From the NCBI GenBank assembly GCA_025201365.1, contig JAIXMF010000001.1:2480001-2544000 (forward strand): a stretch of DNA of 64,000 nt. The letters are read 5' to 3'. The stretch comes from Syncephalis plumigaleata (lineage: Eukaryota > Zoopagomycota > Zoopagomycetes > Zoopagales > Piptocephalidaceae). The notes below the pieces were generated by a model. That model worked only from the letters and a program-made list of their open reading frames with translations, had not been told where the DNA came from and did no database searches. The position numbers and the translations under genes were made by a program. Shown in pieces: positions 1,913 through 43,552 of this stretch (its first letter is position 1; each line of letters begins with the position of its first letter).

Positions 1913-4778
1913 AGTGCGATATTTCTTGGGAAATATGCACTAATAGAAGGAGCTAATCTAGCATGTACATGTATGTTAGCAAGAAAAAAAACAATTTAAT
2001 ATAGCATATATGCTCTCCGATTGAATGTATCTCCCTCTTTTTCCACTCAGTTTAATATATACATTATTCATTTTCACTTACAGATAAAATAATGCTTAGC
2101 GGAAGGTGCAAATCGAATAGGGACTGAGCTAACTTGCAAATGGTAAAAGTAGATGGAAAATTGCTGTAAATTGAGCTGAAAATACGCGCGTCGTCGCAAA
2201 AAACCCGCTAGTACAACGTACGCACTATGATTAGCGTTAGTTAGTTGCTTAACCACTAACTAATACTGTTTAAGTTCCGCGTAGGGGGTAGTGGAATATG
2301 CAAATGAGCTAATAATAAAATGATGGATAGTTCGTCGAACAGATGAGAAGTAAGTAAGTGAAAGAAGAGAACACAGCCGATGATGATGAGGGGATATTAT
2401 GGTAATAGTGGTTAGCACAAATGCAGTCCGATAAGAAAGTAAAAATAAATCGGCTGCGTACACCACACGTACAGTATCACTCCTCAGTAACAAAAAAAAG
2501 AATAAAACTCTGTTGTGCTAGAGTATATATGCAGCACTCCAATACTATATATGTAAATATAGCCCTATAAACTGGAATAAACGACAACTTGGACACGTAT
2601 ACCGATAGACTAATCGTAGTAGTGTTCAGTGGCAATATACGAGTGTGAGTGTGTATATGTATGTCGTCGGTGTCTAAATCAGTAGAATAGACAATGGAGC
2701 TATGATGAATAATGAAGAAGAGGAGTAGTAATGAAGATATGGCGTAGCTAAAGAATGCAATAAAAGAATGGGCAAGCACACATGCAATTCATTCACTCGC
2801 TAAAGGGGGGATAATAAGGCGATATATATATAGAAAAAAACGTGTGTGCGATAAACGCTAACACAAGAAGAGAGAGAGAGAGAGAGAGGAAGAGAGCGAG
2901 AATAGAAAAGTAGACGAGAGTGGCAAGGTAAAAGGGCTGAGAGAGAGAGAGGATGGAGAAAAAAGGCGGAGTCCAGCTTGCAAGGGCGGAAAGAGTGTGA
3001 CAGAAGCGGAAAACGCAACCAATTCAACGGCCAGTAAAGCAAAAAAGAGATAGAGATAGATAGAGATAGAAATAGAGCAGAAACAAGTGTTGAGCAGTGT
3101 AGCGTAGAGTAAAGCGAGAGAATCCTTTGAACTGAATAATCAATCGTTCCACACAAACTACAACGGACACTATTAATTAATCCAAATCTATGGATAATGA
3201 AGCAATAGAGATAGAATAGATTAAAGAAGAGGAGGAAGAGGAAGAGGAAGAGAAGAGTTGAAACGAGTTTCTACCCGTTGAGATACTACTAGTCATAGCA
3301 GTGATAGCAACAAGCAATATAAGCTAGTGTTTACGTGTTTGTGTTTAAGCGTATTTTGATGGGACACTATTGTTTCGAGGATGTGAATGGATTTTCATGT
3401 TGTCTGCAGCGTGATTACAGATTGGATAGACGTCGTTAGCGATGATTGGAGCCTCGACTGCAGCTGAAAACAGGTAAAAATAGACCTCAAAGGCCATTAC
3501 TATGGCTGCAAGTACTACAATAGCACAGCCGCTACTTATGGTCAGTTGTAAATTATCGCGATAGCAAGTACGACATGGTCACCTATAGACTAGCTCGACT
3601 GTGACAATACTGGTCGATTTCTACATGATCATCCTTACTAGTGTAGACATTGGTATCGTTGTTGTACCTTATGAATATACGTGAGCTCATTATAATTTGA
3701 TTAGATAATTTCCAAGTGTATAAATAGAGAGGGAGGGAGGGAATTGAGTTTATAGAAGGTGGCGCGTTCCTCTTGTCATCTTCTATTCTACGCGAAAACA
3801 GACACTAAAAATAGTGGAATACGTGTCCACATGTCCTCCCTCTGTGTAGCATCATATGACATAGTGGTATAAATAGCCGATGGACATGTTATGCGTATAT
3901 GTATTTAATCAGTTATTCGGAGTAGTAACCATTTTATATCGAGTTGTAATGCGAATACTAATGTATCACATTCACGGTCTTGTTGCATAATGACAATCAA
4001 GACAAGTATTAGACCATATACTTCTTGTAGTAGTAGTAGTAGTAGTAGCGATGGTATGATTTGTAATTGTACTCTGATTAAATAGTGTCTCCTTTTTGTT
4101 ATAAATAATCTCCATATACTTATATCCATTAATATTGCCACCAATATACGTATATTACTTTATTGCTTGAATAAATACATTATATAGAAGAATACGATAT
4201 CTACTACTAGTATTAGAGATGAACAAGGGAAATGTTATCATTCATACTAATAGTGGTGTCAGTGTTTTTTTTTTCGGTTATTTGAAAAAAGTATATCACT
4301 CTGTGACCTGCTGCACCCAGCTGTAAAGCAAACTTACTCTCTATCGGTCTGTCCTTTTCTACGAAATCAATCGCTTTTATTGTCAATAGTATACTTGAAT
4401 TTGTTGTACCCTATTTGGATCAGCCACAGTTAGCGGTAGTTGACACAGGTAAGCATACGGACACTGTATAGATTAGGGTGATCAAGTGGTTACGTCTAGT
4501 ATTTATGGGGGAAAACACAATCCACAATTGAACTGTTCCTTAAACATACTATAGCGACAGTAACAACAATAGCAGTAGCAGTAATAGTAGCAGTAGCAGT
4601 AGCAATAGCAATAGCAATACTAATATTCACGCCTACACTACTCTATTATATTTTTATTTAGATCTAATCTATCAAGTGCTACTATCGTGAATCAATAATT
4701 ATAATCGACAATTACCTTGTTAAAAAGAGAAAAGGGGGAAGATCGAGTTAGACATTATTGTCTAGATTGCTTGCCAAT
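1913..4778. other. Intergenic region between divergent chitin synthase and chromatin-protein genes
   Basis: About 2.9 kb without a convincing gene. It must hold both divergent promoters. Visible content: a purine-rich GA tract at about 2865-3270, including runs of AGAG; a short AGT trinucleotide run near 4028-4050; and an AGC/AGT/AAT-type repeat at about 4555-4620 shortly before the chromatin-protein ATG. Open frames on the minus strand in 2260-3156 are only the pyrimidine-rich complement of the GA tract (Ser/Leu/Tyr-rich translations) and are not taken as genes. Confidence 0.6.
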
Positions 4779-20874: not shown

Positions 20875-20951
20875 TGCTGTGTAGTAATTTTCGTATTGCG
20901 TCCATTTGTTTCCTCACCATCTCTTTACTTGCCTCGTAGTAATCAATAATA

Positions 20952-20977
20952 CAGGCTTTTTCCATCCAATTTGCGCA
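20952..20977 (+). repeat. Terminal inverted repeat of the 569-bp element (right-end type)
   Basis: Begins CAGGC, then a T-run and CCATCCAATTTGCGCA. It continues GTTAGCCTTCTG, which is also found inside the right end of the 4.4-kb element, so this is the right-end type. Its partner is at 21,495-21,520. Confidence 0.9.
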
Positions 20978-21494
20978 GTTAGCCTTCTGTTTTACGAATA
21001 AATAATAGTTAACACTTACAATTACTACTCCGTATTTTGGGGATGTGTTGGCGACAGTGGCGGTTGACGATACACCTGGTTAATTTGTATTTGTTGTTTG
21101 GATCCTCATGTCTTGTCCTCATTAGTGATGCTTTGCGATTACCATGATCAGGAAGGAACGGCACCTCGTTGGAATTGTGTTGGAAACCCTTTCCATTGCG
21201 AGCACTGCGGATAATCTGAATAAAATTCAGACATGCAGCCATATCCCGATTCCATACACGATAATCAATAGCTACTTGTAAGTACATGACATGGCAATAT
21301 CCAACTATACTAGTACACTTGTATCTCTACCTTATAGAATTGATGATGATAGTTATCGCTATCAATAAATGGTTATTACTAATACTGAATTGTTATTATT
21401 ATCATGCTGTATCAATTGCCATTTCTATGATGATAATGGTGTTAACAATTGTGTAAATCTATCTATCAATAAACTGCAAATGTTAAAGGGTAAA

Positions 21495-21520
21495 TGCGCA
21501 AATTGGATGGAAAAACACTG
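21495..21520 (-). repeat. Terminal inverted repeat of the 569-bp element (left-end type)
   Basis: The reverse complement begins CAGTG, then a T-run and CCATCCAATTTGCGCA, followed by TTTACCCTTTAACATTTGC. That extension matches the left end of the 4.4-kb element at 28,055-28,075. A 5'-CAGTG end with TA flanks resembles Tc1/mariner termini; this is a resemblance only. Confidence 0.9.
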
Positions 21521-21646
21521 TAATACAATACAATACATACAATACAATATAAATTATTGTATTTATTCATCTATTAACATTGTGCGATACATGTTACAAG
21601 TGTGTATGTTATTAGCTATTTATTAAAACGAATAATTACGAATGGT

Positions 21647-27661
<6,015 letters not shown>

Positions 27662-28029
27662 GATAACTATTGCGTTTCTAAATAGTTGGATAGATAGAAA
27701 TACGTTAAATGAGGAATAAAAGAAAAGAAAAAAAACTAGAGGATACGCGACTATTATTAAGGAAAAAAAAGATACGGCTCCGCTATATGCTATTGCAATC
27801 ACACTACGCGGTAGACACAATAACTATCCTCTTCCTAGTTAGTATGCCTTCGTAAGAAAGACGATAAATGCGTGGCATACAATCCAGCAACAATAATAGA
27901 ACACTCAAACGCCAGTGGTAGACACGAGAATGAGAATTAGCGGCTGGTTGTGCATAAAGAGAAAAAAAATTATATTTCTTTTTTTCTATTTGCTCTCATT
28001 GGCAGGTGGACATGATGATGATAATAATA

Positions 28030-28054
28030 CAGTGTTTTCCATCCATTTTGCGCA
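28030..28054 (+). repeat. Left terminal inverted repeat of the Fanzor transposon
   Basis: Starts CAGTGTTTTCCATCC after a TA dinucleotide. It matches the reverse complement of 32,382-32,406 with a few mismatches, and matches the left-type end of the short copy. Confidence 0.88.
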
Positions 28055-29701
28055 TTTATCCTTTAACATTTGCTGTTTATTAATAAATAGATTTACACGA
28101 TTGTTTACACCATTATTACCATAGAAATGCCGATTAACATAGCACGATAATAGTAACAATTCAGTATTAGTAATAAACCATTTATTGATAGCGATAACTA
28201 TCATCATCAATTCTATAAGGTAGACGATACAAGTGTACTAGTATAGTTGGATATTGCCATGTCATGTACTTACAAGTAGTAATAAACTAGTATGATAGAT
28301 AAGTTATGATGATAATGCTTACGGTTAACTGCATAGAGAGCAACGAGTGAACAAATAGTATACACGATAAACAATGTAATAAACAAGCAGTAGTTAGTAG
28401 ACTGACTGGCTTGTCACCGAACGAGCAAGGAATGAGCAAGGAATGAGCAAGGAAGGGTGCATGAACACGTATGTCAGTTTATTTGAAGAATCAGTGTATG
28501 CTTGTATGCCGTGAATAGAGTATGTAGATGGCAGTAAACAAATAAAAATACAAATAAAAGCATGATGTAGTGGTGGCATACAAACAGATGACGGAAAAGA
28601 GTGGTAAAAGTAAAAGGTACATATTACAACGAGAGCAGTGAATGCTTAAGCATTGATAAATAAGCAGGACAGTGATAGAAAATAAAGGACTAGAACGAAC
28701 AGTAAACAATGCTTATTGGTATAGGAATAATAACGACAAGAGAGCATATAGATAGTTTAGAGCAAGAGGAAAACAAAGAGATAAATAAACGTCATAGAGA
28801 TAGTATAGCAGAATAGCTGCTATTGGGAATGTGTATGCTAAAGTGAAAGAGGAAGTAAGTGGAATGCGAATGACACGAAGAAGACGCGTATTACTTAGAA
28901 AGTAAAAGAACTAGCTAGCATATAGTTAAGAGGAAGTAGACGCGTGTTGTTTACTGACAAGTGGGATGTAGTTGACACAAATAAGTGTGTTATTGAATGA
29001 CAAGAGAAAAGACGCTAGTTCGAAGAAGACAGCATTAGTAAAGAGAGAGAAAGAAAGATGTTTTTATTGATTAATAAAGAAAATTAAGAGTTTATACATC
29101 AGTCGATAATGAGGAATGGAAATATATTATCATTGTTAACGAAGTAAAGGAGGAGGAAATAATGTAGATAATGAAGTAAAAGGAAAGGGGAAAGAGAAGC
29201 AACGATGAGATGGATACTTGGAATGGATTGGTAAACCATTAATCAAGTGTTAACAAATAGATAAGGAGAAGTTGCTAACGGAAGCATTAATAGAATGCAA
29301 ATGAATATATTAACATCCATTACAAGACTCTGTTCATTTATTAATAGCGAATCTTTCATTAATAAAGTGTTAACAAGTTCATTAGTACTTATTAATGCTT
29401 ACCGATTGCTAAATTATCATCGGCGTTATACCATTGCTACAATGACACTAGATGATACGAGTCTTACTGTGCTGCGCTGTAAATGATACTACTTACCATA
29501 ATAGATTCACCCTTCCTGTATGTGTCTGCACGAGCGTTTCACCCCTACGTCATCAGATCCGCGCAGTTAGTACTACCAACATGCCACGTATATAAAGAAG
29601 CGTCTATACTACAATAAAATAAAAGATTAATTAACCCTTCATATTGTAACTGTGCTCGTTTTAACATACTGCTTCTATATTGAATAATATCCCTTTTCTT
29701 C

Positions 29702-32318
29702 ATGATGCCACAGCCAGGCACTCATGGCTCGTCTACTTCTGCCAACAGTGAACGAGTTCTGGCTGTGAAGTCCTCGCTTTCCGGCATTGGTTGGAAGAGG
29801 CATTACGATGAGTTGCGCAATTTTGTAAACATCGTACACACCACGACCTTCCATGCCTATTCGCTCTTAAAGTATATATTCCTTAAAGAGCAATATAACC
29901 CACATTTTCAATTGGAGAAGTATATTGATGAAAAGTTCTTCAGACAAGTTTGGCTCTCCTTAGTCAAACGTACACAAGAAGGCTACCCTAAAGAAAAAAC
30001 AATTCAACTTCGCGCGTTCATCGGCAACTATTTGGGCGATTACCTTAAGATTGCTCGCTATCAACTGCCGATGTTAGCCTATGCCGATCAATCAGCTAGT
30101 TACGAGGCAAAGAAGATGTACGTCGCTTACACCAACAACGTCCGATTACGCTTTGGGGAGTTTCTTCGACGCGCTATTAACAAAGTTTTCGATGTTAAGA
30201 AGAAGTTAAAGACTATGAGGGGAAGGTTATCCAAGAAAGCAAATGCTGATGAGCTTCACAAGAAAACCAGTGCTATCACTGAGCCAGCAAAAGAGTTCAA
30301 GCTAGCGATGGTACACCGAGGGGGGATTGAAGCATTGGCTAAAAAGGATCCCACCTTTACTGAGGTATTTGACACATTTAAAGACGTTTTGGATGCTTAC
30401 ACTGAGGGCTATGACTTTGGTGAAAACGGCCTTTATTACGACTGTAAAGAAAACCCAGTCAAGCACTTTAAGGCGTTCTTTGAACTTGCGCGCCTGTTTA
30501 AGGACCTCGACCTGAAGGGTTTCAACTGCTTCCCCTGCGCCGATCCTTCTCACTTTGTAATCCGCTCCTGTGATATATGGACTTCACAGTAGGATTTCCT
30601 CACTTTAACGAATCTCCTTATAGATTTGATCCCGTGATGATACACTTGCTCATTATTACGTCAGAATCTATAACGATCACCCGCTCACCTCTTATTCCCT
30701 TACACAAACAATCAACAACCACCCGACGATTCAACATAAAGTAGCATTCGCCATGCTACGCTTCCCGCTCATCAACAAGTACTACGCGAACTAGTACATC
30801 TTCGACTAACTCGGCAAAGATGCGCTGTAGCAAACTCACATCTACTGCTGGTACCTCTTTACATTCATAGCTGTTCTAGCTATATAAGCGTACTTACATT
30901 TATACGAAATAAAGACATTATCTTATCACACACTTACTCATCGAACAATACCCTCTACTCTACAATTCTCTCAACTTATCATAGTGTCTTATCTTAACAC
31001 GAGCTCTCGAATCTATCGTAACATTATTTCAGGCAGAACAAATTGCCGCGTTACAACTTGTTACGTGAAATTTACGTACGCTTTTTGCGCTATCAAAAAT
31101 GTCATCTCAAAATAATAGATCGCAAACATAATAATTGGACGATCAGTTTGTTTGTGATCGCCCAAGCAGAGATGCACGCGATTTACAAAGCGTTGCAAAT
31201 CGTGAGGATCAGTCTCCTTTATTCATTATCACTTAGAATACTTTATTATTAGCATGTTACTAGTGTTCGCTAAGTATAAATAGTAGCACTTTTATTATCT
31301 AATAAAGAACAATCATTCATACAGCAACAATTGGCTTAATAAGATCACTTACTATACTATTGTGCCTCCTATTCATCACACATATCGTCAAGTAGCGAAT
31401 TACTACTTGATTAGGTCGACGCGATTTCGTAGCTATCTCACTTCAACACGATATCCGCGTGACACTACTATCCTTTGCGAAAACATATATATCTGAAGTG
31501 TCGATCAGATCACTCAGATATACTCATCGACTTTTACCGAGATACCACCACCGACCATCCTACTCAACATCCTCTTTTCAGGAAGTTGAAACTCTCGGCC
31601 TACATCAGCAAGCAGCAAAGTGATCAAAAGCTGATTGATGAGCTGACTGAGAAGTTCAAGAAGGATGCGGTGTTTGTGAAGGGGAACTGGTCCGCTCCTC
31701 ACACCAAATATCACGAGCCCATACGTGGTGTTGGCTTTAGAAGACTTTTAAAACGACATGGGTTTAAAGTCTTTCTAATCGACGAGCACAAGACCAGCAA
31801 GTGCTGCCCAGCTTGCAACAATCCCACCCTCGAGAAATTCAAGCCAGTTGCGAATCCTCGGTCGAAGCAACATGAAGACAGCCATAAAATTATCTGTCAT
31901 GGTCTCTTAAGGTAAGTACAATTTATTACACTTTGCTATTTATCATGATATATTAATTAATTATTTTATTAGATGCACACATCGAACTTGTAATAAAGCC
32001 ATGAAAGATATAAAGGCCAGGAAGAAGCGAGAGGGCAAGCTGGAGGTGGATTATAAAGAGGATCCGGAATCTAAAAGATACGAACACCGCTTATGGAATC
32101 GGGATATGGCTGCATGTCTGAACTTCATTCAGATTATTCGCAGTGTTCGTGAGGACAACCCTATTCCAACACAATTCCAACGACGTGCCGTTTCTCCTCC
32201 TGAGCCTAGTACATCCGCCAAGCATTCACTAAATGAAGATCAAGATCAAGAGGACAAGGCCAAGAGGGATCCAAACATCAAAAAACAAATTAACCAGGTT
32301 GTATCGTCAATCGTCTAA
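29702..32318 (+). CDS. Fanzor-type (eukaryotic TnpB homologue) RNA-guided nuclease gene, probably not intact as read
   Basis: Two coding blocks are clear. Block A, 29,702-30,592, encodes 296 residues with a basic helical N-terminal region (VKSSLSGIGWKRHYDELRNF). Block B, about 31,475-31,911 plus 31,973-32,318 across a 61-bp intron, encodes the RuvC core and zinc ribbon: FRKLKLSAYISKQ, VFVKGNWSAPHT (RuvC-II-region strand; the acidic residue usual there is not obvious), YHEPIRGVGFRRLLKRHGFK, LIDEHKTSKCCPAC, HGLLRCTHRTC, and WNRDMAACLNF with the last RuvC Asp. This order is that of Fanzor proteins. The 880 bp between the blocks has no long frame, and I could not find the first RuvC Asp (usually D-P-G), so it is either decayed or hit by several indels. 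Fanzor enzymes cut DNA guided by an omega RNA made from the element's 3' region; here that would be near 32,200-32,400 (inference). Confidence 0.78.
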
Positions 32319-32381
32319 AATACAGGCTAGTTGTAAGTGTTAACATAACTATTATTTATTCATAAAAAACAGAAGGCTAAC

Positions 32382-32406
32382 TGCGCAAATTGGATGGAAA
32401 AGGCTG
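32382..32406 (-). repeat. Right terminal inverted repeat of the Fanzor transposon
   Basis: TGCGCAAATTGGATGG followed by AAAAGGCTG, then TA at 32,407-32,408. It matches the right-type end of the 569-bp copy at 20,952-20,977 (reverse complement) almost exactly. Confidence 0.88.
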
Positions 32407-32578
32407 TATTCAACTTGCGCCTTTGATCATCAAAAAACACCTTCCTCGTCCAATTAATCCTTCTATTTCTTAATGATTACTGTTTGATAAAGGAATCACT
32501 ATTGGCACTTGTTCTTGTCGATTAATATTCATATGAAATAGGTTACCTGTATTTCTAGTTGTTGTACTAAACAAAGCA

Positions 32579-43318: not shown

Positions 43319-43488
43319 CAATGACGGTAATGCAGCACCAAATAACTCCATAAACAATAGTCATGTAACAACTTAATAATGCTGTAATTGGTATTATTAA
43401 CAGTAACAGTAGCTGAAATAGTAGCAGTCGTAGTAGTATCATTATCATTATAAGTCTATATGACTTTGCATTATTATTATTATTATTA

Positions 43489-43552
43489 CAGGGTTTTTCC
43501 AGCCGATTAGTGCACTTCTCCTTTAATTTTTGCTGTTTATTAATAAATGTGT
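43489..43552 (+). repeat. Diverged left-end fragment of a Fanzor-transposon relative
   Basis: After TA it reads CAGGGTTTTTCC, and further in CTCCTTTAATTTTTGCTG and TTTATTAATAAAT. The left end of the 4.4-kb element (28,030-28,085) has the same order with CAGTGTTTTCC, ATCCTTTAACATTTGCTG and TTTATTAATAAAT. The middle of the repeat differs, so it is a related subfamily. No matching right end was found in the window, so only an end fragment is claimed. Confidence 0.65.

Follow-up and report, generated by a model that had tools for sequence, protein, structure and literature searches.

A broken Fanzor1 gene in a family of non-autonomous TIR/TA elements of Syncephalis plumigaleata, and a one-sided A beside the insertion site

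Fanzor proteins are likened to TnpB of the IS200/IS605 and IS607 elements, an RNA-guided RuvC nuclease with a guide RNA from the right end of its element; the working model considered here is borrowed from TnpB. The biological role of Fanzor was called unknown by Saito et al. (PMC10432273), who describe Spu-1 and its gene-less "ghosts" in Spizellomyces punctatus. Mariner elements that carry Fanzor1 only, such as PUl-4, are described with Mariner-like terminal inverted repeats (TIRs) and a TA target-site duplication (TSD) (Bao and Jurka 2013, PMC3627910). Here, we describe an element in a 64,000-nucleotide stretch of Syncephalis plumigaleata (assembly GCA_025201365.1, contig JAIXMF010000001.1, positions 2,480,001 to 2,544,000), referred to as the window. 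The element is 4,377 bp long (28030-32406), has TIRs at both ends and TA on either side, and carries a Fanzor1 gene that is broken. It is one copy of a family of non-autonomous TIR/TA (Tc1/mariner-type) elements in which Fanzor1 is the sole recognised protein, and the insertions of this family tend to have an A before the left TA.

The outer ends of the window copy read TA/CAG...CTG/TA, the slash marking the border, and an inverted repeat of 38 nt (87% complementary) pairs 28026-28063 with 32373-32410. About 30 other copies were compared, some of them listed twice. Nearly all have TACAG at both ends and lie in unrelated flanks, the exceptions being TATAG, TACGG and AACACAG. Because the copies share their ends but not their flanks, the borders are not due to chance. 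The initial annotation had proposed the TIRs, the CAG...CTG ends and the TA flanks for an element at just these coordinates, and all of this was borne out, in the window copy and in the family copies alike; the genome-wide search with the ends and the alignment of copies that it had suggested as a check gave borders coinciding with these repeats. The border features are as follows.

28028..28029, no strand: left copy of the TA target site, with A before it (...AATAA/TA), the favoured left-flank base; read from the sequence, with the same border in other copies
28030..28063, plus strand: left TIR, CAGTGTTTTCCATCCATTTTGCGC..., with one T fewer than the form usual in the family
28028..28279, plus strand: left 252 bp, common to the fetched copies of ~570 bp (a biased measure, as these loci were mostly picked by likeness to the left/right 201 bp)
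32373..32406, minus strand: right TIR, a variant of CAGCCTTTTCC...
32407..32408, no strand: right TA target-site copy, read from the sequence

Across the 32.6 Mb genome, counting alternative haplotypes, 322 places match the left-end 19-mer TACAGTGTTTTTCCATCCA exactly, and its reversed form, used as a control, matches nowhere; the window copy, with one T fewer, is not among the 322. When left and right ends are paired (93 distinct pairs), the copies fall into length classes of ~235, 570, 970-1240, 2000 and 4000-6300 bp, the longest of which may hold nested insertions or join the ends of two copies. A Fanzor gene would not fit into many of the copies. A few left-type ends are found at right ends and vice versa (C23:23617/24198; C1:1196445/1197032), and these were kept in the counts. 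Many flanks are found a second time on a small contig (e.g., C12, C38 and C42), which would fit alternative haplotypes. The window itself holds a 573-bp copy on the minus strand (20950-21522), with no room for a gene, that is 92% identical at the left end and 75% at the right. A further 62 bp (43487-43548) resemble the left end of this element (82% identity) and may belong to another related TIR element.

A protein search of the genome gave 91 matching stretches that cluster into 41 Fanzor loci, haplotype duplicates included. In the window copy, the C-terminal block with the zinc ribbon matches Fanzor1 of Parasitella parasitica (E 5.7e-33) and of Spizellomyces (E 3.6e-12), so that comparison with solved Fanzor1 proteins supports the earlier Fanzor call. 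The identity of the gene thus stands, while its broken state was missed at first reading. The gene is laid out in the following pieces.

29705..30555, plus strand: Fanzor N-terminal block (REC/WED side), an open reading frame (ORF) 77% identical to residues 2-281 of the Fanzor at locus L010
30556..31059, no strand: insertion of a high-copy repeat that has 98% identity with its other copies and looks, by eye, like a long terminal repeat (LTR)
31060..31468, no strand: further foreign or rearranged sequence, ~0.4 kb
31469..31489, plus strand: junction, at which YLKCR directly follows a short and weakly matched remainder of the IDTVILCENI codons
31490..31911, plus strand: Fanzor C-terminal block, with the RuvC-II Glu (LIDEHKTSKCC) and the first zinc-ribbon Cys pair
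31912..31972, plus strand: intron (GTAAGT...TAG) deduced from the frames; those of L010, L024, L028 and L026 break here too
31973..32318, plus strand: last exon, with the second zinc-ribbon Cys pair and the RuvC-III Asp (WNRDMAACLNF)

Compared with the intact copy at L010, the window gene has a 1-nt deletion near 30531, just before the break, that shifts the frame; 936 bp of other sequence where intact copies run on; and no counterpart to ~551 bp that include the RuvC-I DPG motif. Because of this insertion, the absent RuvC-I segment and the frameshift, the two coding blocks are the remains of a gene in an inactivated copy. The junctions of the lesion were placed by local matches, one of them weak (window 31469-31488 with L010 element positions 2577-2596, E 0.075; window 31490-31641 with 3148-3299), a global alignment across the lesion being uninformative. 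The repeat may be read as an LTR with a TSD, as it runs TGTAAT...GTTACA to 31055 with ACTT on both sides. The sequence at 31060..31468 is matched, among the loci compared, only by loci of the same place, and lies outside the other matches listed.

Four complete copies carry a Fanzor gene with 626-700 codons in exon 1 and, in addition, a last exon. Exon 1 of L010 matches P. parasitica Fanzor1 at E 8.4e-115 and that of S. punctatus (SpuFz1) at 1.6e-32, which by sequence comparison makes the Parasitella protein (PpFz1) the closest solved relative. L010 lacks ~105 residues of the PpFz1 chain (gap 990-1096), a stretch that is probably the FRI insertion. In the Fanzor of L026 (on C373), a Pro/Thr-rich insertion of ~40 residues, seen by eye, separates FYRDT from the FRKLKLS segment, at roughly the position at which the Parasitella protein has the extra stretch taken as the FRI domain. 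A Pfam search with protein P0001 gave no match, and PF26935 is listed for most Fanzor matches of the protein search. No transposase frame was seen among the ORFs of the window copy, as the initial annotation had noted, nor, by eye, among the frames of at least 90 amino acids on both strands of the four complete copies.

The motifs of the nuclease are kept in the open copies. DPG is present in 18 of 18 and the RuvC-II Glu motif in 17 of 18 (L071 has K), and WNRD is found in all four copies whose last exon was read. The pairwise ratio of nonsynonymous to synonymous substitution (dN/dS, omega) has a median of 0.38 (range 0.29-0.59) and is alike for close and distant pairs; 150 of 153 pairs were used (dS 0.05-1.5), the pairs are not independent, and the copies were picked for an open exon 1. 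The open Fanzor copies are under purifying selection, although the fraction of copies that is open is not measured thereby. It could be argued that Fanzor is no longer useful to these elements, a transposase alone moving the family while the Fanzor copies hitch-hike and all decay like the window copy. The window copy is indeed not the only broken one, since 9 of the 41 loci have stops inside the matched stretch and others are split or partial, and there are the many copies too short for the gene. However, decay without selection would not give an omega of ~0.38 in 18 open copies for close and distant pairs alike, even in a set picked as open, and we hold this explanation to be improbable.

The right end is the other part of the element that is well kept. 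In a comparison of 41 right ends, identity per 10-nt block is 88-100% within the final ~70 nt, against 46-79% in the next 110 nt upstream. The right ends were found by a pattern over the last ~20 nt, so the two outermost blocks are conserved by construction and do not count as evidence; blocks -21 to -70, outside that pattern, are conserved at 88-99%. The ~235-bp copies also keep the right end, and the sequence directly upstream is unlike. A loose motif search for right ends gave no match. The omegaRNAs reported for Fanzor1 proteins are 75 nt (PpFz1), 90 nt (SpuFz1) and 150 nt (GtFz1) long (PMC11423790, PMC10432273, PMC10711439); those described include the TIR and sometimes the TSD and extend 14-15 nt into the flank (PMC10432273, PMC10711439). 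By analogy, the right end probably encodes the scaffold of an omegaRNA, the guide RNA, and two features can be proposed.

32339..32408, plus strand: putative scaffold of an omegaRNA, made up of the conserved right end including TIR and TSD
32409..32423, plus strand: flanking bases, ~15 nt, that would act as guide, as in published Fanzor1 omegaRNAs

The TAM (target-adjacent motif) of PpFz1 is reported as 5'-ATN (PMC11423790). With a TA duplication at the insertion site, an A would therefore be expected before the left TA, and this is what was found. Flanks were counted among the matches listed (100 of 210, 100 of 228, 100 of 116 and 99 of 99), and near-identical flanks were dropped (100 to 87, 100 to 92, 100 to 79 and 99 to 80; pooled, 162 and 171). 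In the first sample, A precedes the TA at 54 of 87 left and 28 of 92 right ends; in a second, disjoint list, at 55 of 79 and 21 of 80 (p 5e-8); and in the pooled set, at 105 of 162 and 49 of 171 (p 3e-11). Within elements (93 pairs), 46 have A only at the left end and 21 only at the right, while 10 have it at both and 16 at neither (p 0.003). The background frequency of A before TA in the window is 32%. G is rare before the left TA, at 13 of 162 against a background of 23%; the left count does not differ significantly from that on the right side (23 of 171, p 0.12). By analogy with the Parasitella enzyme, the left-flank A bias matches a Fanzor TAM.

The same bias might instead come from the transposase. 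The left and right TIRs differ in sequence, and unlike TIRs could make an asymmetric integration complex that favours A on the left, with Fanzor as a passenger that does not shape insertions; that the bias is also found in the length classes too short for a Fanzor gene would be in keeping with this. Yet the favoured base is the one required by the nearest solved Fanzor (ATN), and the Fanzor and ghost loci described in S. punctatus obey the same left-sided rule with CA (PMC10432273).

A transposase family against which this can be judged was found elsewhere in the genome. A search for DDE_3 transposases (26 candidates scored, 31 matches) led to a sister family with five copies of 4,525 bp and a 383-codon frame, plus shorter copies of ~2.6 kb.

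G000:C90:380462-384986: 4,525-bp DDE_3 copy; the others are on C39, C116, C344 and C362

The TIR of this family matches the left TIR of the Fanzor family at 34 of 45 bases, where the best of 100000 shuffles reached 26, but it is not identical; neighbours were judged against the 100 places listed, so that others may be missed. The initial annotation had looked to a transposase elsewhere in the genome, which is reasonable given that such a family exists, and the DDE_3 transposase is a likely helper in trans. No Fanzor frame was seen in the C90 copy, and the oriented sister copies do not overlap with any of the 41 Fanzor loci.

The pooled flanks of the sister family have A at -1 in 10 of 31, which is at background and differs from the left flanks of the Fanzor family (p 0.001). 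This control used all 38 matches listed, reduced to 31 when near-identical flanks were dropped, and its pattern excludes copies with A at -17. In the sister copies whose gene orientation is known, however, A at -1 occurs in 0 of 9 flanks on the 5' side but in 7 of 11 on the 3' side (p 0.005), so that a family in which no Fanzor was seen is asymmetric too, in the opposite sense. This lends the transposase explanation some support, while the background value of the pooled flanks speaks against it. In the C90 copy, moreover, both ends share an identical first 261 bp, and the TIRs can therefore hardly be the cause of the sister asymmetry. On balance, we consider it unlikely, though worth keeping in view, that the A bias is the work of the transposase.

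A C1:572852 match to DDE_3 was considered as the cognate transposase and rejected, as it belongs to a nested Tc1 element with its own 213-bp TIRs. This Tc1-like element (~1,657 bp, 380-codon transposase) interrupts another Fanzor copy, L045 (C1:569750-575620). A further copy of it, L046, shows 100% identity across 1,657 bp, a sign of recent movement.

The current thinking is that the window holds a dead copy of a TIR/TA family that is moved in trans and makes use of a Fanzor, omegaRNA scaffolds, cutting at A-TA and homing; we put the probability of this model at roughly two in three. The transposase of the DDE_3 sister family, with its similar TIRs, would move the elements. Intact copies would make the Fanzor, and the right ends of the Fanzor copies and of the many gene-less ones would supply the omegaRNA scaffold, with the flanking DNA as guide. 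Fanzor would then cut the matching site, if it is unoccupied and if the insertion is preceded by A-TA, the TAM, and repair would copy the element into the cut (homing). An occupied site would read GTA before the guide and be spared. The initial annotation had Fanzor acting after excision. For a TA/CAG element this is doubtful, because a CAG/CTG footprint would place G, not A, before the TA, and cutting of the unoccupied homologous site fits better.

Several observations weigh against the homing model. The asymmetry of the sister family is the opposite of what a Fanzor would predict and is unexplained; it came from a post hoc test and may be due to chance, but it lowers our confidence in the model. 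Within the TIRs of the Fanzor family, a search that covered only DDE_3 found no transposase other than the nested foreign Tc1 of L045. Four right ends fold no better than their dinucleotide shuffles (z 0.3 to 1.4). The A bias itself was first suspected from the ~30 compared copies, and both flank samples contain some of these again. Among the flanks listed, 57 of 162 on the left are without A, and 20 of 162 read AAC. Finally, elements of the CAGAC right-TIR subtype (15) do not differ from the others (78) in the left -1 base, and a subfamily-specific TAM was dropped as an idea.

The closest protein matches are from S. plumigaleata itself (Zoopagomycota, Piptocephalidaceae). The named Fanzor matches from outside Syncephalis come from fungi that we take to be Mucoromycota, and a profile search adds one from Coemansia. 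In a tree of 37 chosen rows, rooted at the midpoint, all 8 rows from Syncephalis group together (100/99), separate from the rows named as Mucoromycota. This clade is nested in one of 21 rows with Mucoromycota and two environmental rows (99/98; internally not resolved), which Coemansia, on a very long branch, adjoins (91/83); the Parasitella rows lie further out. Syncephalis is a mycoparasite, and mycoparasites of the Zoopagales are described as attacking Mucoromycota hosts (PMC10386755). A transfer of Fanzor between Mucoromycota and their fungal parasite is possible but, given the midpoint root and the very long Coemansia branch, not shown by this tree. A bolder and decidedly tentative proposal is that the mycoparasite acquired a Fanzor transposon from its Mucoromycota prey, that the nuclease now drives in trans the homing of a gene-less, guide-bearing swarm, and that the A-TA rule at the left flank is a population-level record of this in a DDE-moved element.

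With such relatives, the contig might also be a contaminant, derived from a Mucoromycota host in the mycoparasite culture, and the family that of the host; S. pseudoplumigaleata is reported to have been contaminated by host in axenic-growth trials (PMC6784888). Against this, copies are found on contigs throughout the 32.6 Mb assembly, multi-megabase ones included, and the Syncephalis Fanzors stand apart in the tree from the named Mucoromycota rows. Contamination is thus a very improbable source.

The genome offers a natural experiment, with more than 100 distinct insertions that have or lack the nuclease gene alongside a sister transposase family in which no Fanzor was seen. Whether a Fanzor influences the places at which its transposon persists can be tested cheaply on genomic data through the left-right asymmetry. 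The open Fanzor paralogues would allow TAM screens, occupied and empty alleles could be compared through the alternative haplotypes, and the tree makes a transfer between Mucoromycota and fungal parasite worth testing.

Spu-1 and its ghosts are the closest described system (PMC10432273). As described there, Fanzor1 is the sole ORF between inverted repeats, with no transposase reported as flanked by them; gene-less ghosts (134, of ~550 nt) correspond to the gene-less copies found here; a conserved right end of ~75 nt is the omegaRNA, which here is putative by analogy; and the conserved bases upstream of the left repeat equal the TAM. The Syncephalis family differs in belonging to Zoopagomycota, in a left flank of A (ATA) rather than CA (CATA), in its several length classes and in having a sister DDE_3 family with similar TIRs. 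The TIRs of elements such as PUl-4 are described as identical to those of confirmed Mariners (PMC3627910), whereas the Syncephalis family is only similar to the best transposase family found. PpFz1 (PDB 9cf0, PMC11423790) shares the RuvC and zinc-ribbon layout, and its ATN motif fits A plus TA, but it has the extra residues noted above, and the Parasitella rows, among which PpFz1 was not singled out, fall in another clade of the tree. The likeness to TnpB is one of description: the Syncephalis family consists of eukaryotic TIR/TA elements with a DDE rather than a TnpA transposase. In our search of the literature, which covered few subscription journals and no supplements, no paper was found to join Fanzor with Syncephalis or Zoopagomycota. 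The Spu-1-like architecture is already known; the host is new, as are a candidate for the transposase, the asymmetry measured at the flanks, and a tree compatible with transfer between Mucoromycota and a fungal parasite.

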